DNA of 64,000 nt, taken from contig JAISMF010000023.1 of NCBI GenBank assembly GCA_031276865.1, positions 1-64,000 on the forward strand, written 5' to 3'. Below are positions 3,211-58,160 of this stretch, one piece after another (position 1 is the first letter of the stretch; each line of letters starts with the position of its first letter). Source of the DNA: Deltaproteobacteria bacterium (GTDB lineage: Bacteria; Desulfobacterota; Desulfarculia; Adiutricales; Adiutricaceae). A model generated the notes under the pieces. That model did not search any database and was not told where the DNA came from. It worked only from the letters and a program-made list of their open reading frames with translations. The position numbers and the translations under genes are program-made.

Positions 3211-4185
3211 CGGCGAAAGGGCCGCCGGCGGAAGAAAAGGGGTGGGAAAGGCGGGAGGGGCCCCCTGGGGCGGAGCTTCGCGGCTTTCCATTATCCAATC
3301 CCGACGCTGTTTCGCGCGGCGGGTAGATCGAGGCATCTTGTTTAAATAATTATTCATCATTTATATTATAAACGCTTCTAAATTTTGTTTTAATATTTAA
3401 AGGTTGTTTATTTCTTTAAATATAACATTTTTTATAAAAATCATTATAATATTTATCATATTTAAACTATAAATATTAAATTTATAATTCATTTAATTTT
3501 TTTATTTTAGTTTTTCTAATGGGCTTTTAATCATGATAATTTAAACATCATCACGCGCCAATTAAGCGCGGGCGCCCCCCGCCGATCGCTCTGACGTCTC
3601 CCGCTTAGCCGGAGCCGCCGCCTGGCGATGGCCGACCCGCGCGGCCGCGCCTCCCTCCCGCCTCCTCCGGCGGGGTCCCTTTCGGGCTTCCGCTTTAGGG
3701 TTGTTATAAATCTGTGGAGTTTTCCTTGAAACTCTGGTAAATTAAGGGTGATATTTCCGTCCGCCGGCCCGGACGCCTTTTCCTCCGTTTCCCTCTAGGA
3801 AAAGCGGCCGTCACCCCCCCCCACCCCCGCGAAAACCGCCCGCCCCCCGCTTCCTGGCGCGGCTTCGTCCCCCGTTTATTTATCATTCCGGTTTTCCCGG
3901 GCGACGCGGTCGCTCTGTTGGAACGTACAATTTTAATTTTTTTCACAGGATCCCGGGGACGCGTTTCCGCCGCGGGATCGGTTTTTTTTTAGGGGCCTTG
4001 ATTCGGGCTTTATTCCCGCGGCGCCTTGGCCGGCCAACGTTTTTCCCGTGTTTCCGCCGTTTCGCCCCCTGGAACGGTATTTAGGCGGAAAACGCCGCGC
4101 GGCGGCGGGGCTTTTCTGGGTTTCCCCCCTAAAGCGCCTCATGGCCGCGCCCGTTCGTTTTTTATCGTTTTTATTTGGAGGTCTT
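3211..4185. other. Non-coding spacer upstream of pilC
   Basis: 3340-3545 is extremely AT-rich; 3550-4150 is GC-rich with runs of C. Overlapping open frames exist on both strands but none has a plausible ribosome-binding site or protein-like composition. Nothing else was recognised. The GGAGG of pilC lies at 4177-4181. Confidence 0.45.
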
Positions 4186-5394
4186 ATGCCGAACTACGTC
4201 TGGAAGGGGATAAACGCCAAGGGAAAAAGGCGTTCGGGGCACATGGAGGCTACGGACACCAGGCAGGTGGAGGCCTTTTTAAAACGCCTGCGCATCTCCG
4301 ACTACACCATAAAGGACGCTCCCAAGGATCTCTTTTCCGGCATCGCCATGTTCGCGCCCAAGATTAAACCCAAGGACGTGATGATCTTCACCAGGCAGTT
4401 CTCCACCATGATCGACGCCGGTCTTCCCCTGGTGCAGTGCCTGAAGATCATGGCCGATCAGAGCGACAACCCCACCTTGAAGTCCATGATCAGGGACGTG
4501 AACAACTCGGTGCAGTCCGGAGCCACCCTTTCCGACGCCCTGCGCAAGTACCCCGAACAGTTCGACAGCCTCTACTGCAACCTGGTGGCGGCCGGAGAGA
4601 CGGCCGGTATTTTGGACACCATCCTCAAGCGCCTGGCGGAGTACATAGAGAAGTCGGAGCGGCTGAAGCGCAAGGTCAAGGGCGCCTTGGTCTACCCCGT
4701 CATCGTCCTTTTCGTGGGCGGCGTGGTCACCTTGGTCATCATGATTTTCGTCATCCCCACCTTCGAGGAGATGTTCGCCTCTTCCGGCAAGGAGCTGCCC
4801 ATGCTCACCCAGAAGGTCATCGACATGTCCAATCTCGTGACCACCAGGTGGTACATCATCTTCCCCGCCCTGGGCGCCATGGTCTTCGCCATCAGAAAGA
4901 TCATGAAAACCGAGCAGGGCGCCTATTACTTCGACAAATATTCCCTGAGCATGCCCCTCTTCGGCGATCTCCTGCGCAAGGTCGCGGTCTCCAAGTTCTC
5001 CCGCACCCTGGCCACCATGCTCCAGGCCGGAGTGCCCATCATAACGAGCCTCGAGATCGTGGCCGGCACCGCCGGAAACAAGGTGGTGGAGGAGGCCTTG
5101 AACGACTCCAAAGCGGCCATAGCCGAGGGGAGGCCCTTGGTGGATCCCTTGATCGAGTCCCAGGTGTTCCCCAACATGGTCACCTCCATGATCGCCGTGG
5201 GCGAGGAGGCCGGAGCTTTGGACGCCATGCTCATCAAGCTCGCGGACTTCTACGACGAGGAGGTGGACGCCGCCGTGGAGACGGTCATGACCATGATCGA
5301 GCCCCTCATGATCGTCTTTCTGGGAGGCACCGTGGGAACCCTCATCATCGCCATGTACCTCCCCATCTTCGGCATGGCCGCCACCATGAACTAG
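4186..5394 (+). CDS. pilC: Type IV pilus / type II secretion inner-membrane platform protein
   Basis: 402 residues from the ATG at 4186, which has GGAGG five bases upstream; the frame is open earlier but without a signal. Two T2SSF domains are visible. The first is around 60-190 (FTRQFSTMIDAGLPLVQCL), and the second around 265-390 (FSRTLATMLQAGVPIITSL) with its repeated GEEAGALDAML motif. Three hydrophobic helices sit near 165-195, 215-235 and 370-395. This is the full family length. PilC anchors the assembly ATPase at the inner membrane and drives pilin polymerisation. No pilB, pilT or pilin gene lies nearby, so the pilus system is dispersed. Confidence 0.93.
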   Translation: MPNYVWKGINAKGKRRSGHMEATDTRQVEAFLKRLRISDYTIKDAPKDLFSGIAMFAPKIKPKDVMIFTRQFSTMIDAGLPLVQCLKIMADQSDNPTLKSMIRDVNNSVQSGATLSDALRKYPEQFDSLYCNLVAAGETAGILDTILKRLAEYIEKSERLKRKVKGALVYPVIVLFVGGVVTLVIMIFVIPTFEEMFASSGKELPMLTQKVIDMSNLVTTRWYIIFPALGAMVFAIRKIMKTEQGAYYFDKYSLSMPLFGDLLRKVAVSKFSRTLATMLQAGVPIITSLEIVAGTAGNKVVEEALNDSKAAIAEGRPLVDPLIESQVFPNMVTSMIAVGEEAGALDAMLIKLADFYDEEVDAAVETVMTMIEPLMIVFLGGTVGTLIIAMYLPIFGMAATMN

Positions 5395-5472: not shown

Positions 5473-5492
5473 CCAGGCCGCCGGGGAGAGAA

Positions 5493-7232
5493 ATGCAGTG
5501 GTTTCCTCTTAAAATAGAGGAGGGACGTCAGAAGCGGCTGTTCATCTTCCGCCTGATGACCAACATCTTCCTGAGCCTTCTCGTAATCCTCATCCATTTA
5601 AACGGCAGCACCCCGGACATATTCGGATTCTGGCCCAACGTCATCGTCCTGGTGATGGTGGGAAGCTTCATCCTGGCGGTGGCGGACTACATCCTCTGGC
5701 CGAAGTTTTTAGGCCCGGGCGGCCAGATAATCGTCCAGGTCGTAACCGACGTCATCTGGGCCTCGGCTCTCATCGTCCTCACCGGCGGCTTCGACTCGGC
5801 CCTCCTCTTCCTTTTCATCATCGTCGTGATAAACAGCGCCTTCCTGGGGGGGCTGCGGGTATCCTTCATCGCCGCCACCCTTTCCACCTTCGCCTGGGCG
5901 GGGATCGTGGATCTGCACTACTACGGCTATCTGCCGGGCCTCCCCCCCTTGGGCGAGTTTTTGAGCCCGGCGGAGCTCGCGGTGAACATCCTGGTGAACA
6001 CCGGCGCCTCCTACATGGTGGCCATCCTGGGGGGGCACCTCTCCACCCAGCTGGAAATATCCAGCCAGGCCCTGGTTAAAAGCCAGAGCAGCCTCGACAG
6101 GCTCTCGGAGCTGAACGACAACATCGTGCACTCCATCGACTCCGGGCTCATAACCACCGACAACCAGGACCGGGTGCTCTCCATCAACCAGGCGGCCCGG
6201 GAGATCCTGCGGGTCTCCTCGGGCGAGGTCATCGGCCGCTCCTGGCGCTTCTTCCTGCCGGAATTGAACAACGTCGAGCGGCTGCCTTTGAAGCACCCCC
6301 ACCACCGCAGGGTGGACGGGGGGCTGCGCTTCAAGCATTTTCGCCCGGTGGACCAAGAGGAGCTCATTTTAGAGCTCGACACCCTGGCCCTGGTGGACGA
6401 GAACAACGAGCCCTGGGGGAGGCTCATGGTTTTAAAGGATTTGACGGCCATAAGCGCCCTGGAAGCCGAAATCCAACGAAACGAGCACATGGCGGCCATG
6501 GGGAAGCTCGCGGCCGGCCTCGCCCACGAGATCCGCACCCCCCTGGCCTCCATGAAGGGATCCTGGCACATGATCCTGGGCGGCAGCCTGGCCGAGGAGG
6601 ACACCCGGCGCCTCATGATGATAATCGGCCGGGAGATGGAGAGGCTGGACCACCTGGTAAACGAGTTTCTGGCCTTCGCCCGGCCCAGCACGGGAAACCC
6701 GCAGCCCATCGAGCTTTACGGCTTCATGGAGGATCAGCTCAAAGTGCTGGAAAGCGCCGGCCGGGGGGAGACGGAGGTGGAGCTGGAGCGGGAGGATGTC
6801 CCGCCGGTCTACTTCGATCCGGACAAGCTCAGGCAGATAGTCTGGAACCTCCTCCAGAACGCGGCCGAGGCCCGGGACCCCGAGCGTAGGCTTAAAATAA
6901 CCGTCTCCTTGAAAAACTCCGAAAACCCCCCCGGCAACGTTTCGCTCACCGTGGAGGACAACGGCAAGGGAATCGAGGAGGAGCGGCTCAGGCACATCTT
7001 CGAGCCCTTCTACACCACCAAACCCAAGGGGACGGGCCTGGGGCTGGCCACCGCCTGGAGCCTCCTGCAGAAGGGGAACGGCGGCATATCGGTCTCCACC
7101 TCCCCCAACAAGGGCACGGCCTTCACCCTGAGCCTCCCCCGCTACACCGCCGCGGAAGGAAAAACGGAGGCGCTTTATCCCTCCGCCGGAGGGGGGGAGT
7201 TTTCCGGCTTAAGGGAGCCGGAAAGGGCCTGA
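5493..7232 (+). CDS. pilS: PilS-type sensor histidine kinase
   Basis: 579 residues from the ATG at 5493 (GGGGAGAG upstream). The N-terminal ~190 residues hold about six hydrophobic helices, as in PilS. A PAS segment follows (about 208-330, ending GRLMVLKDLTAISALE), then HisKA with the phospho-acceptor H345 in GLAHEIRTPLASMKG, and an HATPase domain with an N box (WNLLQNAAEA), DNGKGI and GTGLGLA. It would phosphorylate an NtrC-type regulator (PilR) that activates sigma-54 pilin promoters. The usual adjacent pilR is missing, since the next gene is on the opposite strand. The pilC neighbour supports the pilus assignment. Confidence 0.85.
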   Translation: MQWFPLKIEEGRQKRLFIFRLMTNIFLSLLVILIHLNGSTPDIFGFWPNVIVLVMVGSFILAVADYILWPKFLGPGGQIIVQVVTDVIWASALIVLTGGFDSALLFLFIIVVINSAFLGGLRVSFIAATLSTFAWAGIVDLHYYGYLPGLPPLGEFLSPAELAVNILVNTGASYMVAILGGHLSTQLEISSQALVKSQSSLDRLSELNDNIVHSIDSGLITTDNQDRVLSINQAAREILRVSSGEVIGRSWRFFLPELNNVERLPLKHPHHRRVDGGLRFKHFRPVDQEELILELDTLALVDENNEPWGRLMVLKDLTAISALEAEIQRNEHMAAMGKLAAGLAHEIRTPLASMKGSWHMILGGSLAEEDTRRLMMIIGREMERLDHLVNEFLAFARPSTGNPQPIELYGFMEDQLKVLESAGRGETEVELEREDVPPVYFDPDKLRQIVWNLLQNAAEARDPERRLKITVSLKNSENPPGNVSLTVEDNGKGIEEERLRHIFEPFYTTKPKGTGLGLATAWSLLQKGNGGISVSTSPNKGTAFTLSLPRYTAAEGKTEALYPSAGGGEFSGLREPERA

Positions 7233-10073: not shown

Positions 10074-11075
10074 TTATTTTTTCTTGGAAGAGGCCTTGGG
10101 GGCGGGTTTCTTGGTCTTGGAGCCCGAACTCTTCCCGCTCCCTTTGGCGGCGCTTTTGCTCTTCGCGGAGGCCTGCTTGGAGCTCTTCTGCGGTATTTTA
10201 ATGGTCTGGCCGGGTTTCAGCTTGTTGGCGTTGGGCATGTGGTTGTAGGCCACGAGATCGGAGGTGGAGACGCCGTAGCGCTTGGAGAGGTCGTAGAGGG
10301 TGTCGCCGTTGGCGACCTTGTGCGTTTTAGCGTTCTTCCCTCCGCCGTTTTTGGTCCGGGCGGCGCTATTCGCGTTTTTGCCTTTGGAGGCCGTGTTTTT
10401 GGGACGGCTGTAATTGGCCTTGGCTCCGGTGTGCCTGGTGGCGGCCTGATCGTTTAAGGCCAAGGTGGTCTGGTGCCGCGACTGCTTCACCCATTCGGCC
10501 TTGAGGCTCGCGGATATGTTGGTGACCCCCTGGTTGTCGATCACCCGGCGGGCGCCCACGTAGTGGTTTTTGCGGCCGGCGCCGTTTATGTCCGATTCCT
10601 GGATTCTTTTGCCCGTGCTGGGGCTGTGGATGTATTTGTCGTTTCCGGTGTAGATCCCCACGTGGGAGTAGCCGTAGTTGAAAAACACCAGATCGCCCGG
10701 GCGGAGATCGGCCTTTTCAATGGGGGTTCCCACTCCCAGCATGTCCCTCGACGAGCGGGGCAGATTGACGCCGTACTGTTTGTAGACCCAGGAAACGAAG
10801 CCGCTGCAGTCGAATCCCGTTTCCGGGGAGTTGCCGCCGTAGCGGTAGCGGTTTCCGAACTGGGAGAAGGCCGTTTTAAGGATGTTGTTCACCAGAAGCC
10901 GATTCGGCTCGCTGTAGACCGCTTCGAAGGACGGGACGGCCCGGGGTCTGGCGGCGAAGCGGGAGGCTTTCTGGCATCCGGCGATTACAAAGGTGAAAAG
11001 CAGAAACGAAACAACGAGAAGGGAAAAGGCGAATCGACGATTAAAAACGTGCGAACCGGTTGAATCGGTCATCAT
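10074..11075 (-). CDS. NlpC/P60 endopeptidase lipoprotein with C-terminal LysM
   Basis: 333 residues. A lipoprotein signal peptide ends in a lipobox FVIAGC (lipid Cys34). The NlpC/P60 domain spans about 60-165 with catalytic Cys90 (DCSGF), His138 (SHVGIYTG) and a third polar position near His150. A basic Ser/Ala/Lys-rich linker follows, then one LysM domain (about 250-297, VANGDTLYDLSKRYGVS) and a Lys-rich tail. It should cleave peptidoglycan stem peptides (gamma-D-Glu to diaminopimelate) at the cell envelope. The second ATG (11072) has better spacing to GGAG than the first. It is a single gene with its own terminator. Confidence 0.92.
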   Translation of the reverse strand: MMTDSTGSHVFNRRFAFSLLVVSFLLFTFVIAGCQKASRFAARPRAVPSFEAVYSEPNRLLVNNILKTAFSQFGNRYRYGGNSPETGFDCSGFVSWVYKQYGVNLPRSSRDMLGVGTPIEKADLRPGDLVFFNYGYSHVGIYTGNDKYIHSPSTGKRIQESDINGAGRKNHYVGARRVIDNQGVTNISASLKAEWVKQSRHQTTLALNDQAATRHTGAKANYSRPKNTASKGKNANSAARTKNGGGKNAKTHKVANGDTLYDLSKRYGVSTSDLVAYNHMPNANKLKPGQTIKIPQKSSKQASAKSKSAAKGSGKSSGSKTKKPAPKASSKKK

Positions 11076-12033
11076 GTCTCCTGATTTTTGCGAGCCGGAG
11101 GGAAAATCCCGCCCCTCCCGAAGGAAGGCTGAAAACCCCGTGAAATCTTCGGGGGCTTTCCCGGTTTCGCATTATTTTTGGCGGCTGATGGGCGACATTC
11201 AATCGAAATCAAATTAAAGCCCAGCTTGAAATAAGTAAGCGGCCTGGAATCAAACGTGATTCCGGCGCGGTTTGGAAGCGTTGACGAAAAATCCGCGGGC
11301 GGACCCCTTAAAGAAGCTTCATCAGCGGACGGGACGATTTTGTTTTTCGCATAGGAAACGTTGAAACATAAAAGCTTGGAATAAAAAGATACTTATCACA
11401 CACCAATGGGGCCCTGTCAAGTCTTTTTTGACTGTTTACAGGGGCCTGGAAGGGGTCTGGAAGGTGAAAAAAACGCTATATATTATATAAAAATTATAAT
11501 TTTAATTAAATTCAGCGGTATTTAACCCCTTAGGGAAAAAATCGGGTTGGCCTTTTCATCGGCGCGGCCCCGGGCTCCCCGCGCGGCGAAGAGCCGCGGG
11601 AATCACCCGGAGCGAAGATTTTACGGGCCGAAAGGCGTCGGGAATTTCAGGGAACAAGAGAGAAAAAAGTTCGGGAGAGAGTTTTTCCCCTTCGAAGCGA
11701 TCGAGGGGAAAGTCGTTTCGTTCAATTAAAACCAGGCTTTCAGCTTTAGGAAGGGCGTTTTTAAATTTATTTTCGCTGGCTTCGCCGCGCCTTCCCGCTC
11801 TATTTCGCCGGGGCGTAAGACGTCTATTCGTCAAGGCGGAAAACGGCCGAAGCTTGAAACGGCCGAAGCGCTGAAAGGCGTGATATTCAGCCCTTCGAAA
11901 CGCCTCGGGTGGACCTCGCGCGGATATTTTTGATCGGGAAGGCTAGATGCGCGCCGCGGCGCGTTTCCGTCCGGAAGGAAAACAGCGGGAGTTTTTTATA
12001 AGATAAAAAAACGTGAAAAAAGAGCGCGGAACG
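11076..12033. other. Spacer upstream of the lipoprotein gene
   Basis: Contains an imperfect inverted repeat at 11409-11446 (GGGCCCTGT ... ACAGGGGCC, with an inner AGTC-T6-GACT) followed by an AT-rich block at 11476-11520. This may be a regulatory or terminator structure. The rest shows no supported gene. Confidence 0.4.
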
Positions 12034-14807: not shown

Positions 14808-15686
14808 TTAAAGGGCCGAGAGTATCAGAAACAGCGCCGCCGTCTCCAGAAGGTAGAGGGGGACGAGTAGAGATCGGCTCAGGCGCAGGAGCGCCGAACC
14901 CAGGAGAAGGGCCAGGAAAAAGGCCGAGGCGAAAAAAAGAAGCTCCGGCGGGCCCGGCCCCCCGTTTAGCGGAACCGAGTCCAGGACGAGGGCGGTCAAG
15001 AGCCCCTGGCAAAAAAGAACCGCCGTCTGGAGCCTGCGCCTGAGGCCCAGGACCAAGGCGTTGAAGACCCCGGTGGAGGCCGCCGCCCCCTTCCGGTAGC
15101 CCCAGTAGAAGCCCAGGAACCTGAAGGGCAGGGCCGCGAGCGTGAAGAGCAACGGGAGCAGGAGGGGGCCCCAGGGGCTCTGGAAGAACCAGGTGACGAA
15201 AAAGGCCGCCAGGGCGGAAAAGCGCAGCCAGGTGTTCCAGAATATCTGATCGCCCTTGGCGCCGGCCGCCGAGGCCAGACAGGCCACGAGCTCGTCCGGA
15301 AGGGGTCCGTCCCGGGCCTCCCCGGACTCCTCCTCCGCCATCTTCAAGGCCGCCCCCAAGACCAGCCCGCTCATGAAGGGGTTGGTGCTGAAGGGCTTGA
15401 GGAGTCCCAGGAGCTCTTCCTGGGTCATGGCCGGCCGGAGGCGTTTCAAGGCCGGAAACATCGCCGCGGCGTAGCCGAGGTTCTGCTTTCCCTCGTCGTT
15501 GAAGGAAGACTCCAGAAAAAGGGAGCTTAGGGCGCAGTTCAGGAGCCGGAGGAGTCCGGCTCTCTTCACGGCCCCCGGGGCGGGGGCGCTTTTCCAGGCC
15601 GGCAGAGGGGCCTCCGAAAAACAAGAAATCGCGCCCCGGAGGGGCGCTCCGGAACGCTTGTCCGGAAAAGGGAGGGAGAAAAACAA
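14808..15686 (-). CDS. Mannose-family PTS IID component
   Basis: Up to 292 residues. The recognisable EIID domain starts near residue 43 (LESSFNDEGKQNLGYAAAMFPALKRL) and continues with STNPFMSGLVLGAALKMAEE, followed by a hydrophobic C-terminal third with four or five helices. Residues 1-40 do not look like the family, so a GTG at 15569 is a plausible true start, though it lacks a clear ribosome-binding site. IID pairs with IIC to form the membrane channel of mannose-type PTS. IIC, IIA and IIB are missing nearby, as in several deltaproteobacteria with scattered or regulatory PTS parts. It lies upstream of HPr and enzyme I on the same strand. Confidence 0.85.
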   Translation of the reverse strand: MFFSLPFPDKRSGAPLRGAISCFSEAPLPAWKSAPAPGAVKRAGLLRLLNCALSSLFLESSFNDEGKQNLGYAAAMFPALKRLRPAMTQEELLGLLKPFSTNPFMSGLVLGAALKMAEEESGEARDGPLPDELVACLASAAGAKGDQIFWNTWLRFSALAAFFVTWFFQSPWGPLLLPLLFTLAALPFRFLGFYWGYRKGAAASTGVFNALVLGLRRRLQTAVLFCQGLLTALVLDSVPLNGGPGPPELLFFASAFFLALLLGSALLRLSRSLLVPLYLLETAALFLILSAL

Positions 15687-16323
15687 GAGGCCGGGCTTCC
15701 GTCCGGCGCTCGAAAAAGCGGCGGAAAAGAGGCCCTTTTCCCGCCGAAAGTCGACTCGGGGGAAAATTCGACTTCAATCTTATACAAAATTTGCGCAAAT
15801 TTCAATAAGTACGGAAAACAAGCTCCCAAAAAACCAAAAAAAATCGAATTCCCGCCGCCCGCGCCCCTTTTCCTCCCTTTTTCGCCCGAAACCGGGCTCC
15901 GGACGGCGGGGACGGCCGGGCGGGCGGAAGAGGGGCTCCGGGAGCCTCTCAAGGCGGACATCGGGGGGGACCGCGCGCCGAAACGGGGAACCCCCAAAAG
16001 CCTCACCGTTTCATGATATTTTTTAAAATTCCGTTTCGCAACCTAAAAGACGCGTTTTTTTTCGGCTTCCTTTCTAAATAGGCGCGGAAGCGGGGAAAAA
16101 TAATTTTTCCCGCGTCTGAAAAAAGCGGATTGGAAACAAGTCAAGGCGAATTATTTTCTTTCGCTTTCCGCCGCCGGGTGAAAACATCGGCGGGCGGACC
16201 TTTTCCGGGCGCTCTTCGGACGCGTTGGTTAATTTTTTGACGATTTTTAAATTTAGATGGCCCGCGCGGGCGACTTCACGCTACCGGCTTTCTTGACCGT
16301 GAGGCGGAAAAGTGTGAAAATCA
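15687..16323. other. Spacer between the PTS genes and the inverted-repeat elements
   Basis: No supported gene. The beginning is the probable promoter region of the minus-strand PTS operon (AT-rich at 15765-15845). GC-rich open frames here lack motifs. Confidence 0.45.
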
Positions 16324-16401
16324 CCCCGGCGGTGAAAATTTTTTGAAAACGCCATGAATTCGAGGGAGCCGCTTCATTGTTCTAACTTTTAACCGCCGGG
16401 G
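16324..16401 (+). repeat. Inverted-repeat element, copy A
   Basis: Starts CCCCGGCGGTGAAAA and ends TTCTAACTTTTAACCGCCGG plus GG. The ends pair over about 22 bases. The inner block GAGGGAnnnnCTTCATT is shared with copies B (16585) and C (35682). A fourth copy lies inverted at 58079. The function is unknown; it may be a MITE-like element or a structured RNA/regulatory motif. Confidence 0.75.
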
Positions 16402-16584
16402 CGCCGGAAGAGCCGGAAGCTCCGCGTTTTAAGCCGGACGGATCAAGGCGCCTTCACGGCGTTTCGCCCTGGACGGGCGGGACCGCGCCGCGGCCGAAAG
16501 GTCGAGGCGGGGCCGTTTTTCCAAAAAAGCCCTCCGCGCGTTTATTTCACGAATATTTCACGCGCGGGCTGATTTTATCTATTA

Positions 16585-16667
16585 CTCCGGCGGTTAAATG
16601 TTGGAAGGAGGCCGGACGACGGGGGGAACCTCTTCATCCTAGAGTTCTAACTTTTTCTCCGCCGGGG
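16585..16667 (+). repeat. Inverted-repeat element, copy B
   Basis: 83 bp. Left end CTCCGGCGGTTAAATGTTGG, right end GTTCTAACTTTTTCTCCGCC plus GGGG. It lies 74 bp upstream of the secreted protein gene at 16741 and reads in the same direction. It shares end sequences and the inner CTTCAT block with copies A and C. Confidence 0.8.
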
Positions 16668-16740
16668 CGACAATAATTTCATCCACAATCGTCTCCGTCT
16701 CCGGCGCCGCTCGGTTTTCATTCTTTCGAAAGGAGTCGTA

Positions 16741-17571
16741 ATGAGAAGAATTTGTTTTTCCTGGTTTATCGCCGCTTTCATCGCGGTCCTTGTTTTCCCC
16801 CCCGCGCTTTCGGCCCAGGACGCCGGAGGGCGCTTGGACGCCTCTCCGGCGGAGGCGAAGCCGGCTCCCGCCCAGGCGCCTCCCCACGCCGCGGGCCAGC
16901 CCGCCGACCCCGCGGGGCCGCCTCCCGGACCCGCGGTCGACCGCCCCGCGGAAGAGACGGCGACTCTTTCAACCGAGCGGCTGAACCGCAGGCGCGCCCT
17001 TTTGGACGACTACTTCGCCAAGGCCGAACCCATTCTGGAAGACTTGAGGGACCAGCAGCTGCTCTACGACTCCTTTAAGGGAAATTCCAACGTCGCCGCC
17101 CAGGATGTCCGGGCCGTGGTCTCCGAAATGCGGAAACTGCGGGATCGGCTAAACGCCCTGACCGACAATCTGAAGGCCGATTTCGAGAAGAACAATTTGG
17201 GAAAGCTCCGTCTTCCGCCCGTCTCCGCCATGATCGATCGCCATCTGAGGCGTGAGCGCGGAAGAGACGGTGGCGGCCGGTACGACCGGGATGGAAGCGG
17301 CGACTTCGACAGCCCCTTCGCCGGGAAAAGATTCGGATCCGATCGCGGATGGGACCGCGACCGGAGCCGCCACCGGGGATGGTCGGGCGACGACCGGAGT
17401 CCCCGCCGGGACGACTACGACCGGGGGGCCCGCCAGGACGGCTACGACCGGAGGGTCCGCCAAGACGGCTACGACCGGAGGGTCCGTCACGACGACGACC
17501 GCTTCCGGGGCGGTCGCCCTGGCCACGGATGCGACGATCCCTATAACGATGAGGATTACGGCGACTATTAA
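16741..17571 (+). CDS. Secreted Pro/Ala-rich protein with Arg/Asp repeat tail
   Basis: 276 residues, family not recognised. An N-terminal signal peptide (MRRICFSWF...) ends near ALSA|QD at 25-26. Residues 30-75 are Pro/Ala-rich. Residues 80-155 form a charged, probably helical segment (EPILEDLRDQQLLYDSF ... MRKLRDRLNALTDNLK). From about 170 the tail is dominated by R, D, G and Y, with tandem units of the type RQDGYDRRV. A GAAAGGAG box precedes the ATG, and a strong terminator follows the stop. Location is likely periplasmic or outer surface. The tail resembles low-complexity, possibly nucleic-acid- or polyanion-binding sequence, but no function is claimed. Confidence 0.75.
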   Translation: MRRICFSWFIAAFIAVLVFPPALSAQDAGGRLDASPAEAKPAPAQAPPHAAGQPADPAGPPPGPAVDRPAEETATLSTERLNRRRALLDDYFAKAEPILEDLRDQQLLYDSFKGNSNVAAQDVRAVVSEMRKLRDRLNALTDNLKADFEKNNLGKLRLPPVSAMIDRHLRRERGRDGGGRYDRDGSGDFDSPFAGKRFGSDRGWDRDRSRHRGWSGDDRSPRRDDYDRGARQDGYDRRVRQDGYDRRVRHDDDRFRGGRPGHGCDDPYNDEDYGDY

Positions 17572-17622
17572 GACGATCCGGCGGCGGCCGGTCGCGGAGA
17601 AAAATATCCGCTCGGTCTTTCA

Positions 17623-17658
17623 AGGCCCCCGAAGAAATCCGGGGGCTTTTATTTTTTT
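17623..17658 (+). terminator. Terminator of the secreted protein gene
   Basis: GCCCCCG (17625-17631) pairs with CGGGGGC (17640-17646), followed by TTTTATTTTTTT. It lies 52 bp after the stop. Confidence 0.88.
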
Positions 17659-18157
17659 CGTCCGCCCGGAAGGGGTCTTTCCCCGCGCGGGGGGGAAGGA
17701 AACGGGGGCTCGCCTCCGTTTGGATCTATCCGGCCGCGGATTTGGGGATCGCGGTTAAAACGTTTCGAAAAAAAAACAGCCGGCCGCGGGACTGGAAGCC
17801 TTCAGCCGTTTGAATATTTCCGCCTTGAGTTTTTTTCTTCCGCGGGGCTTTCGCGAGCGGAAACGGCGGAAGCGCTCCGCCGTTTTCTAAAAATTACCGG
17901 TTGTAAAAATCCCTTGGCGAATTCGCGCGGGGCCTTTTGTCCGCGGAAGGCGTCGCTGGAAACATAACCCCGGACGAAACCGGAGGCCCGTACTTTTCCT
18001 TTCCGGAGCGCTCCGCCCTCGTTTTTCCAAAGCGCTTTCATAGCGCGATAATTTTCGAGCTGGAAAAAATCAGCCCGGAAAAAAACGTGAAACAGCCGAC
18101 GTTACCTAAAACAACTTGGATTTTCGCGGACGCGTCGACGCTTCGCCGCTAAAATAG
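17659..18157. other. Spacer without a supported gene
   Basis: Mixed composition with short inverted repeats (CGGCGGAAGCG / CGCTCCGCCG near 17865-17885). No conserved frame was recognised. Confidence 0.4.
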
Positions 18158-19453
18158 CTACAGGCACAGATCCACTTCTTTCAGGCCGCCTGGCGAGGCT
18201 TTCCAGCCCAGGTAGAGCTCGTCTAGGTCGTAACCCTTGGCCACCGCCAGAGCGCCGTTTTCATTTTTGAAATAGGTGTTGGTCGTGACGCCCTGATGCC
18301 CCTTCCTCATCAAAATAGGCTCCATATCGGAATCCCCGAACCAGTATCCGTCAAGCGACCCTCCCGAGATGGGGCCAGCCGTGGGGGATCCGACGAAATC
18401 GTCCCTCCCCTCGTAGTATGTTTTCGAGAAATCGGAGCCGATGTTCCAGCCGCAAAAGACGCCGTCTCCGGCAGACACATTGGGGGCCACGTTGGAGTTC
18501 AGATAGCCGACGAAATCCAGCGCGGCTTTCTTGCCGTTCTCCTTGGAGACGATGGCGATGGCTTTGGCGAAGGCCTGGCCGGGGGAAGAGCGAAAGTCGG
18601 AAAGCAGCGCCTCGGCCGCGCCATGGTTTTCGAGCCGTTCCTCCAGATATTCGGCGGCGCCCAGCGCCGCCTCCTCGGGCAGATGAAAATTTCCAGCGCG
18701 GGCCTCGCCCACCCCCTCGAAACATAGGCGGTAGAACCCGTCCCGCTGGACGGGTCCGGAAGGGGAGCCGGAGGCCGCCCGCGGCTCTTCTTTCTGGTTT
18801 TCCCCCGGGACGCCGCGGATCCATTCCAAAGCGTCGTTGAAAAACTTGAGGCCGGAGTCGGACGCCTCTTCGCCAGGCGACGCTCCTTTGTGGAAGAAGG
18901 CGTTTAGAAAGGCGGAAAGACCGGCCGCGGCTAAGGTCTCGGAATTGGAAAGCGTCCCCTCTTCGACTTCCAAGCCGAGGTTGAAACTTTCGGCGAGCTT
19001 GGCGATTTTGGATTCGAGGAGCTGGTCGGCTGGGTTTTTAGCTAAAAGTTCCCGGGCGAACAAGCCGACGGCCTCGGCCAGGCCCTCCTCGCTCCCGTCG
19101 GCGTCGAGGATGGCGTTTTGGAACTTTTCCCGCGCTCCGGCTCCGAAATCCTTCTCCACCAGAGCCGCCGCCTGTTCGAAAGCGGCGGCCAGCCGTCCGG
19201 CCAATCGGGGATCGCCCGTTTTCGACCCCTTGAGCCGCTCCGCGATCGTGCTTTCGAAGGAGGCGGATTTTTGGCCTCCATGGTCCGCGGTTTCGCTTCG
19301 GGCCGCGACGGCGGCGGCGGGGTTGGCGTTGGCGGCGGGGATTTCATCCGGCTTTCGCCCGGCCACCCTGAGCCCTCCCGAAACGCCGTGGTCGCCTCCC
19401 GAACCCTTCGGGAGGCGCGTGAAGATCGAGGTGGCGCTCCAGCGCGTGATCAC
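18158..19453 (-). CDS. Hypothetical protein, family not recognised
   Basis: 431 residues from a GTG at 19453, supported by AAGGAG about eight bases upstream. There is no signal peptide or membrane helix. The first 60 residues are Ala/Gly/Ser-rich and look disordered. Residues 60-200 are helical and acidic (repeated LAAAFEQAAALVEKDF-type segments, with a DADGSEEG loop). The C-terminal ~100 residues are Gly/Tyr/Trp-rich and globular-looking (GWNIGSDFSKTYYEGRDDF; DGYWFGDSDMEP). The modular layout, a disordered start plus a compact tail, is seen in secreted or structural proteins, but no family match was made. Confidence 0.6.
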   Translation of the reverse strand: MITRWSATSIFTRLPKGSGGDHGVSGGLRVAGRKPDEIPAANANPAAAVAARSETADHGGQKSASFESTIAERLKGSKTGDPRLAGRLAAAFEQAAALVEKDFGAGAREKFQNAILDADGSEEGLAEAVGLFARELLAKNPADQLLESKIAKLAESFNLGLEVEEGTLSNSETLAAAGLSAFLNAFFHKGASPGEEASDSGLKFFNDALEWIRGVPGENQKEEPRAASGSPSGPVQRDGFYRLCFEGVGEARAGNFHLPEEAALGAAEYLEERLENHGAAEALLSDFRSSPGQAFAKAIAIVSKENGKKAALDFVGYLNSNVAPNVSAGDGVFCGWNIGSDFSKTYYEGRDDFVGSPTAGPISGGSLDGYWFGDSDMEPILMRKGHQGVTTNTYFKNENGALAVAKGYDLDELYLGWKASPGGLKEVDLCL

Positions 19454-19882: not shown

Positions 19883-21052
19883 TTATTCCGCGGCTTGTCG
19901 CTCCATGGTTTCCACGGCGGCGGCGAAACCTTGTTCGGCGGCGAGATTGAACCATTTTTTCGCTTCCCCAAGGTCTTTGGCCACTCCAAGTCCGTTTTGG
20001 TAAATAACGCCGAGACTATGCTGGGCGTCGGCCAAGCCCTGGTCGGCGGCCGCTGAAAACCATTCTTTCGCTTTCGCGTAGTCTCGAGTCAGCACGACTC
20101 CGTTGAGACGCATCGTTCCTATGGCGTGTTGAGCTTGGGGGTAACCGTTTTCAGCCGCCTTTAAAGTCCACCCGAGGGCCTCTTCTTTGTTTTGATCCAC
20201 GCCGTGACCGATATGGTACATCATTCCCAGAAGATATTGAGCCTGAGGCAACCCGTGTTCGGCCGCCAAGCGGTTCCATTTAACGGCTTCCTCCAAATCC
20301 TTCTCTATTCCGACGCCGTTGAAATACAGGAATCCGAGACAAAATTCGGCTAGAGGCTCCCCCTGTTCGGCCGCTTTCCCATACCACGCGACGGCTTCGA
20401 CCATGTCTTTAACCACGCCGTCTCCTTCGGCGTATTTACTACCGAGCGCGTAACTGGCTCCGGAATGACCCTGTTCGGCCGCTTTCCTATACCATTTCAG
20501 GGCCGCGGGCATGTCTTTAGCCACGCCGTCTCCTTCGGCGTATTTGCGCCCGAGCGCGTAACTGGCTCCGGAGTGGCCTTGTTCGGCCGCTTTCCTATAC
20601 CATTCGAGGGCTTCGCCTTGATCTTTCGCGACTCCTTCTCCCAAGTCGAGTTTGCGCCCCAGGATGTAGCGCGATTCCATATGACCTTGTTCGGCCGCCA
20701 AGGCGTGCCACTTGACGGCTTCAATTTCGTCTTTCACGACGCCTGGCGCGCCGTTTCCGTAGAGAAGCCCGAGAGCGTGCCGAGCGTGGGATATCCCCCG
20801 CTCGGCCGCCAGGCGGAACCATTTGACGGCTTCCTCGTTATTTTGATCCGCTCCGTCTCCCAATAGAAAACAATAGCCGAGATTGTATTGGGCCAGCGCC
20901 AAGCCCTGTTCAGCCGCCAGACGATACCAGCGGACGGCTTCGGCTTTATCCTGGATTACGCCTTCTCCTTTGTAATACATGGCTCCGAGATGATTTTGAG
21001 CGTCGGCGTAGCCCCGTTCCGCCTTTTGGCGGATTAACTTAGTGTCTGCCAT
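19883..21052 (-). CDS. Sel1-repeat (SLR) protein
   Basis: 389 residues composed almost wholly of about ten 36-residue Sel1-like repeats (consensus AEQGxAxAQYxLGxxYxxGxGVxKDxxEAxKWYRKA). There is no signal peptide. Sel1 proteins are alpha-solenoid scaffolds mediating protein interactions; many bacterial ones act in signalling or host contact, but the partner here is unknown. Repeats 5 and 6 are nearly identical at the DNA level (about 20400-20620), which points to a recent duplication. The start is ATG with a distant GGAG. Confidence 0.92.
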   Translation of the reverse strand: MADTKLIRQKAERGYADAQNHLGAMYYKGEGVIQDKAEAVRWYRLAAEQGLALAQYNLGYCFLLGDGADQNNEEAVKWFRLAAERGISHARHALGLLYGNGAPGVVKDEIEAVKWHALAAEQGHMESRYILGRKLDLGEGVAKDQGEALEWYRKAAEQGHSGASYALGRKYAEGDGVAKDMPAALKWYRKAAEQGHSGASYALGSKYAEGDGVVKDMVEAVAWYGKAAEQGEPLAEFCLGFLYFNGVGIEKDLEEAVKWNRLAAEHGLPQAQYLLGMMYHIGHGVDQNKEEALGWTLKAAENGYPQAQHAIGTMRLNGVVLTRDYAKAKEWFSAAADQGLADAQHSLGVIYQNGLGVAKDLGEAKKWFNLAAEQGFAAAVETMERQAAE

Positions 21053-35681: not shown

Positions 35682-35763
35682 CTCCGGCGGTTAAATATAA
35701 GAAAAAAACCATGTATCGGAGGGAAATACTTCATTTTAGCGTTCTAACATTTAGCCGCCGGGG
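35682..35763 (+). repeat. Inverted-repeat element, copy C
   Basis: 82 bp. Left end CTCCGGCGGTTAAATATAAG, right end GTTCTAACATTTAGCCGCCG plus GGG. It is flanked by TTA on the left and TAA on the right, which extend the inverted repeat. It is 58 bp upstream of the truncated ATPase gene and points the same way. Confidence 0.8.
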
Positions 35764-58078: not shown

Positions 58079-58160
58079 CCCCGGCGGATAAAAGTTAGAA
58101 TCTTGTCGATCGGCTTTTTTGGCCTCATACTTGGCTGTTTCTAATATTCAACCGCCGGAG
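58079..58160 (-). repeat. Inverted-repeat element, copy D
   Basis: 82 bp, reverse oriented. Read on the minus strand it begins CTCCGGCGGTTGAATATTAG and ends GATTCTAACTTTTATCCGCC plus GGGG. The interior differs from the other copies, so the ends are the conserved part. Confidence 0.75.

Follow-up and report, generated by a model that had tools for sequence, protein, structure and literature searches.

In the window, meaning the whole 64,000-nt stretch of DNA analyzed here, an intact open reading frame of 276 aa lies at 16741-17571 on the plus strand, starts with ATG, and has an AAAGGAG ribosome site directly 5′ of the start codon. The features of the locus are as follows:

14808-15686, minus strand: gene for a PTS mannose-family IID component (PF03613, E 2.5e-19; synteny)
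15687-16740, no strand: 1,054-bp spacer, apparently non-coding, where relatives have a ZraS-like kinase gene; no relic found
16320-16405, plus strand: most likely a MITE (copy 1), 86 bp, nearest to the L024/L030 kind of copy
16581-16671, plus strand: most likely a MITE (copy 2), 91 bp, 85% identical to the L042 copy, ending 69 bp before the ATG
16741-17571, plus strand: gene for a ZraP-like exported protein, 276 aa (open reading frame; family profile against 3lay; weak Metal_resist match)
16741-16818, plus strand: predicted Sec-type signal peptide, residues about 1-26 (by eye; aligned in 20/20 family members)
16966-17202, plus strand: helical hairpin core, residues 76-154, 79 aa (no indels in 20/20 members; AlphaFold2; Foldseek)
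17203-17568, plus strand: low-complexity Arg/Asp-rich tail, residues 155-276, predicted disordered, with a single Cys264
17386-17494, plus strand: tandem repeat of a 27-nt unit within the tail, 4.0 copies (repeat search)
17622-17659, plus strand: terminator-like hairpin with a T run, 3′ of the gene

The four-part anatomy proposed in an earlier, sequence-only reading of this DNA (signal peptide, Pro/Ala linker, helical block and charged tandem tail) was borne out by the open reading frame, the helix prediction and the tandem repeat. The signal peptide, predicted by eye, reads MRR...LVFPPALSAQ, and the Pro/Ala linker occupies about residues 27-75. The terminator call at 17622-17659 is weak on its own, because 5 terminator-like sites were found compared with 5.7 in shuffles. 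Downstream of the gene lie a 431-aa open reading frame (18158-19453, minus strand) that matched nothing in Pfam at E ≤ 0.001 and a gene for a protein with ten Sel1 repeats (19883-21052, minus strand); in the related genome G006, too, a gene with Sel1 repeats comes after zraP. A gene for an NlpC/P60-type peptidoglycan endopeptidase is located by the PTS genes (10194-11102, minus strand), and homologues are similarly placed in relatives. The named relatives are Deltaproteobacteria MAGs with the prefixes Pcl387, Gx481, Gx485 and Roe453. PMC12887300 describes a Pcl387 bin as a lower-termite MAG, and the source of the window is presumably a termite gut.

The sequence-only reading had regarded the protein as not recognisable, a view to be given up if a clear match to an envelope-stress (CpxP/Spy-like) or other defined family were found. 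The search was run and such a match emerged: by sequence profile, fold and the gene context in relatives, the protein clearly belongs to a ZraP/Metal_resist-like family. Searched alone, it matched Pfam Metal_resist (PF13801) at E 2e-4 with 22 bits, below the gathering cut-off of 29.2, and the ZraP equivalog of NCBIfam (NF008584) with 15.8 bits, below the 200-bit cut-off. ZraP was the top NCBIfam match in all nine proteins scanned, each of them below 200 bits, while the Metal_resist cut-off was passed by six of the eight relatives scanned singly. Homologues were found in 24 of 60 related genomes with the single sequence and in 42 of 60 with a 20-member profile, built from 20 of the 24 single-sequence homologues (the other four, without loci, were left out). 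In the window's own family (f1), profile matches were present in 29 of 37 genomes, by our own count from the table of genomes with profile matches. Metal_resist was matched at E ≤ 0.01 by 19/20 members and LTXXQ (PF07813; Spy/CpxP) by 2/20; LTXXQ was absent from the matches of the window protein at E ≤ 10. Against the PDB, the 20-member profile retrieved Salmonella ZraP (3lay) at E 2.7e-17, with the next match at 0.033, and the alignment to 3lay begins in the signal peptide and reaches into the Gly/His tail. A protein search of plasmid records with the window protein gave no match. We do not file the protein as ZraP proper, because both the equivalog cut-off and a zraSR neighbor were tested: the score is below the former, and at the window locus the gene does not lie divergent from zraSR.

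The AlphaFold2 model, run with eight sequences, contains two helices (residues 78-113 and 120-150, pLDDT over 90) between a linker and a tail that are both predicted to be disordered, so that the core of the protein is predicted to adopt the helical-hairpin fold of ZraP. In a Foldseek search of the PDB, chains of 3lay took the top six places with probability 1.00 and target TM of 0.83-0.85, albeit with a weak E-value of about 0.01, and CpxP (3qzc) and CnrX ranked below them. A second structural aligner placed 3lay first of 976 chains (Z 11.7, rmsd 2.1, 81 aligned). As unrelated helical hairpins reach Z 9-10 in this aligner, the fold alone would not decide the identity of the protein; sequence, fold and context together decide the ZraP-like assignment.

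Gene context was examined in all 29 f1 genomes in which ZraP was matched. By our reading of the place tables for ZraP and kinase matches, 19 of them have a divergent adjacent sensor kinase and six have a kinase match on a different contig. No kinase match was obtained in the remaining four, namely the window's own genome (G000), G002, G009 and G032; the contig of G002 ends about 400 bp upstream of its zraP gene. ZraS or AtoS was the best NCBIfam match for all three kinases scanned, the ZraS matches having E-values of 2e-62 to 9e-69, and in G005 the gene after the kinase is ZraR-like (E 6.5e-154). The order zraP-kinase-PTS IID-PtsI was observed in 7 of 14 fetched relatives' loci. This divergent layout resembles that of enterobacteria, in which, according to PMC4987338, zraP is divergent from zraSR. 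The enterobacterial zraP-zraSR spacer has sigma-54 promoters; in contrast, no sigma-54 site above shuffles was found in ten relatives' spacers or in the window spacer.

The core and the tail of the family differ in constancy. The core is exactly 79 residues long, with no indel, in 20/20 members, which suggests that the hairpin is held by selection, whereas the linker ranges from 15 to 96 and the tail from 17 to 122 residues; one member, L017, is truncated by the end of its contig. The tails of relatives are of low complexity (Gly/His/Arg/Asp/Trp), and that of the window protein, at 122 aa, is the longest in the family. The tail evolves freely, in the window protein by tandem duplication of a 27-nt unit (4.0 copies, 85% matches, score 141). 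The description of this tail as strongly charged holds, but with 25% K+R, 23% D+E and a net charge of +2 it is a near-neutral polyampholyte rather than a polycation, and the idea of polyanion binding therefore has no basis in net charge. That the tail might form a surface- or polyanion-binding module of its own, as its length, Arg content and tandem repeats could suggest, is very unlikely given this charge, the predicted disorder, and the variation of relatives' tails in length and composition.

At least one Cys is found in the tail of 17/20 members, most of them with several His, and in that of ZraP in the 3lay alignment. Together with the Pfam family, Metal_resist, and the presence of CnrX in the fold list, this would fit a metal sensor or buffer, either CnrX-like or a tail-driven metal sponge, in place of a folding chaperone. 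We consider this possible but rather doubtful. ZraP outscores CnrX in both sequence and fold, and only 4 of the 122 residues of the window tail are His, unlike a typical metal tail. Moreover, the usual partners of CnrX are an anti-sigma/sigma pair, whereas the relatives have a ZraS-like kinase.

The closest known system is thus ZraP (zinc resistance-associated protein, a chaperone linked to zinc; PDB 3lay, STM4172), with which the window protein shares the signal peptide, an LTxEQ-like start of the core and the helical hairpin, and its relatives also the low-complexity Gly/His tail with Cys and the divergent ZraS-like kinase. It differs from ZraP in scoring below the ZraP and Metal_resist cut-offs, in its Arg/Asp/Tyr-rich tail, and in that no kinase adjoins the gene. 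CpxP and Spy (LTXXQ) belong to the same group of periplasmic helical-hairpin chaperones, but the sequence is nearer to ZraP. CnrX, also of this helical group, gave a weaker match than ZraP.

At the window locus, zraP is kept, and so are the genes for IID, HPr and PtsI, but the kinase is gone from between zraP and the PTS genes; IID is the conserved neighbor beyond the kinase in relatives. No kinase relic was detected in the gap, where the kinase profile, run without any filters, scored -3.7 bits at best and tblastn returned short matches of E 0.024 or worse. The profile of the kinase sensor domain found no match across the whole assembled genome, which is 85% complete. G001, of the same genus, has the kinase, so the simplest reading is that the window's lineage lost it. 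The kinase might instead lie on contigs missing from an assembly of this completeness, or the locus might be an assembly join; this is unlikely, because the sequence is continuous through 14808-17571, its flanks follow the order seen in half of the fetched loci, and the assembled genome has no sensor-domain match elsewhere.

The best kinase match in the window's own genome, at 6096-7199, was rejected as a partner of ZraP because only the catalytic half matches, at 30%, and because G008 has its orthologue (65%) alongside a zraP-adjacent kinase. It is also next to pilC and would therefore be PilS-like. The region 5490-7199 (plus strand) encodes an AtoS-like sensor kinase, probably PilS, adjoining pilC (4177-5388).

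In G001, the periplasmic part of the ZraS-like kinase (L074:4818-7097) contains a Pro/Arg/Gln/Asp tandem repeat (RPPRQDGNRPQA), so that a tandem repeat is found in the kinase of this same-genus genome but in the ZraP tail of the window. The roughly 950 bp 3′ of that kinase (L074:7101-8050) are without a recognisable PTS IID gene. Decay in the two genomes of the genus has gone in opposite directions: IID but not the kinase survives in the window, and G001 kept the kinase, with IID unrecognisable.

The two upstream elements that the sequence-only reading had assigned to a family of about 80 bp are present in the spacer, and most likely they are ~90-bp MITEs of an IS630-type element, given their high copy number and the ends they share with DDE_3 remnants. 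Their imperfect terminal inverted repeats begin ATTACYCCGGCGG. The right-end pattern, allowing ≤3 mismatches, had 151 matches in the window's genome compared with 3 for the reversed control; at ≤2 mismatches it had 139, whereas none of 37 comparison genomes, which include the same genus, had more than 1. The right ends of two more copies of the same family are located in the window at 35741-35761 (plus strand) and 58081-58101 (minus strand). Eleven DDE_3 (IS630-type) matches were recorded in G000, on contigs C13, C22, C47, C59, C1, C18, C3, C95, C34 and C89. A weight matrix of the ends detected lone inward ends beside DDE_3 remnants on C13 (35.2 bits), C1 (44.1 bits), C89 (21.2 bits) and C34 (15.7 bits), compared with a best score of 5.3 bits in 20 shuffled 30-kb sequences; hence the elements share inverted-repeat ends with IS630-type transposase copies. 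No lone inward end was found beside the remnants on C22, C18 and C3, and on C47, C59 and C95 the ends near remnants belong mostly to complete short copies nearby. The best DDE_3 matches are interrupted by stops, and the very best (C13) is broken into several frames, so the MITE source looks decayed in the G000 assembly.

Like known IS630-type MITEs, the elements are short, have terminal inverted repeats, occur in many copies, share their ends with DDE_3 transposase remnants, and show TA/AT ends. AT was present at both ends of 25 of 30 copies (a further copy, L028, without a left end, was dropped from this set), and 19 of these 30 showed TA one base out; neither window copy shows a clean duplication. 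They differ in that no intact transposase was seen, in that there are several diverged kinds of copy, and in that the target duplication is putative. With 64% likeness, the two window copies resemble each other less than the 30 copies do on average (68%). Local duplication as their origin was therefore rejected, and this, together with the closeness of copy 2 to a copy on another contig, argues for two independent insertions. A literature search found no paper on MITEs or IS630 in termite Deltaproteobacteria, which is not proof that they are unpublished.

The elements fill the upstream region right up to the vicinity of the start codon, and at the edge of copy 1 there is a weak -35/-10-like pair with its end at 16321. 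A regulatory nature (promoter, operator or structured leader) instead of insertion relics is nevertheless quite improbable in view of the genome-wide abundance of the ends compared with their near absence from the other 37 genomes, their position next to IS630-type transposase remnants, and the low likeness of the two copies. In addition, Rfam found a single tRNA over the window and no match at the two elements.

Taken together, the core of the protein matches ZraP in sequence profile and fold, most relatives keep a divergent ZraS-like kinase, and in the window the kinase gene is missing between zraP and the PTS genes, with the flanks kept and two independent MITEs in the spacer. We therefore consider it highly probable that the product of this gene is exported to the periplasm and belongs to the ZraP/Metal_resist branch of the Spy-CpxP-CnrX helical-hairpin group, and that, with its kinase lost here, this ZraP-like protein is an orphan effector. 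By analogy, it most likely works like ZraP: the hairpins would join in an oligomer that keeps hold of envelope proteins as they misfold, and the tail, which is predicted to be disordered and contains a Cys as well as dispersed His and Asp residues, may be a metal-responsive or solubilising appendage. As an orphan effector, the window protein would no more exert feedback on its own kinase, and its gene would be expressed from some other promoter. A far more speculative idea, to which we give little credence, is that the tail grew by the 27-nt duplication after kinase loss had freed the protein from feedback, and took over a different job, for example to condense reversibly or to buffer ions in the periplasm, in a symbiont living in termite guts.

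The result means one fewer "unknown secreted protein"; the protein is a ZraP-like envelope-stress protein of a known kind, and its modest novelty lies in the extreme tail and the missing partner. The combination of a kinase-less locus and a freely evolving tail is a natural test of the respective contributions of kinase and tail. The ZraP-ZraS arrangement of enterobacteria extends to a family of uncultured Deltaproteobacteria.
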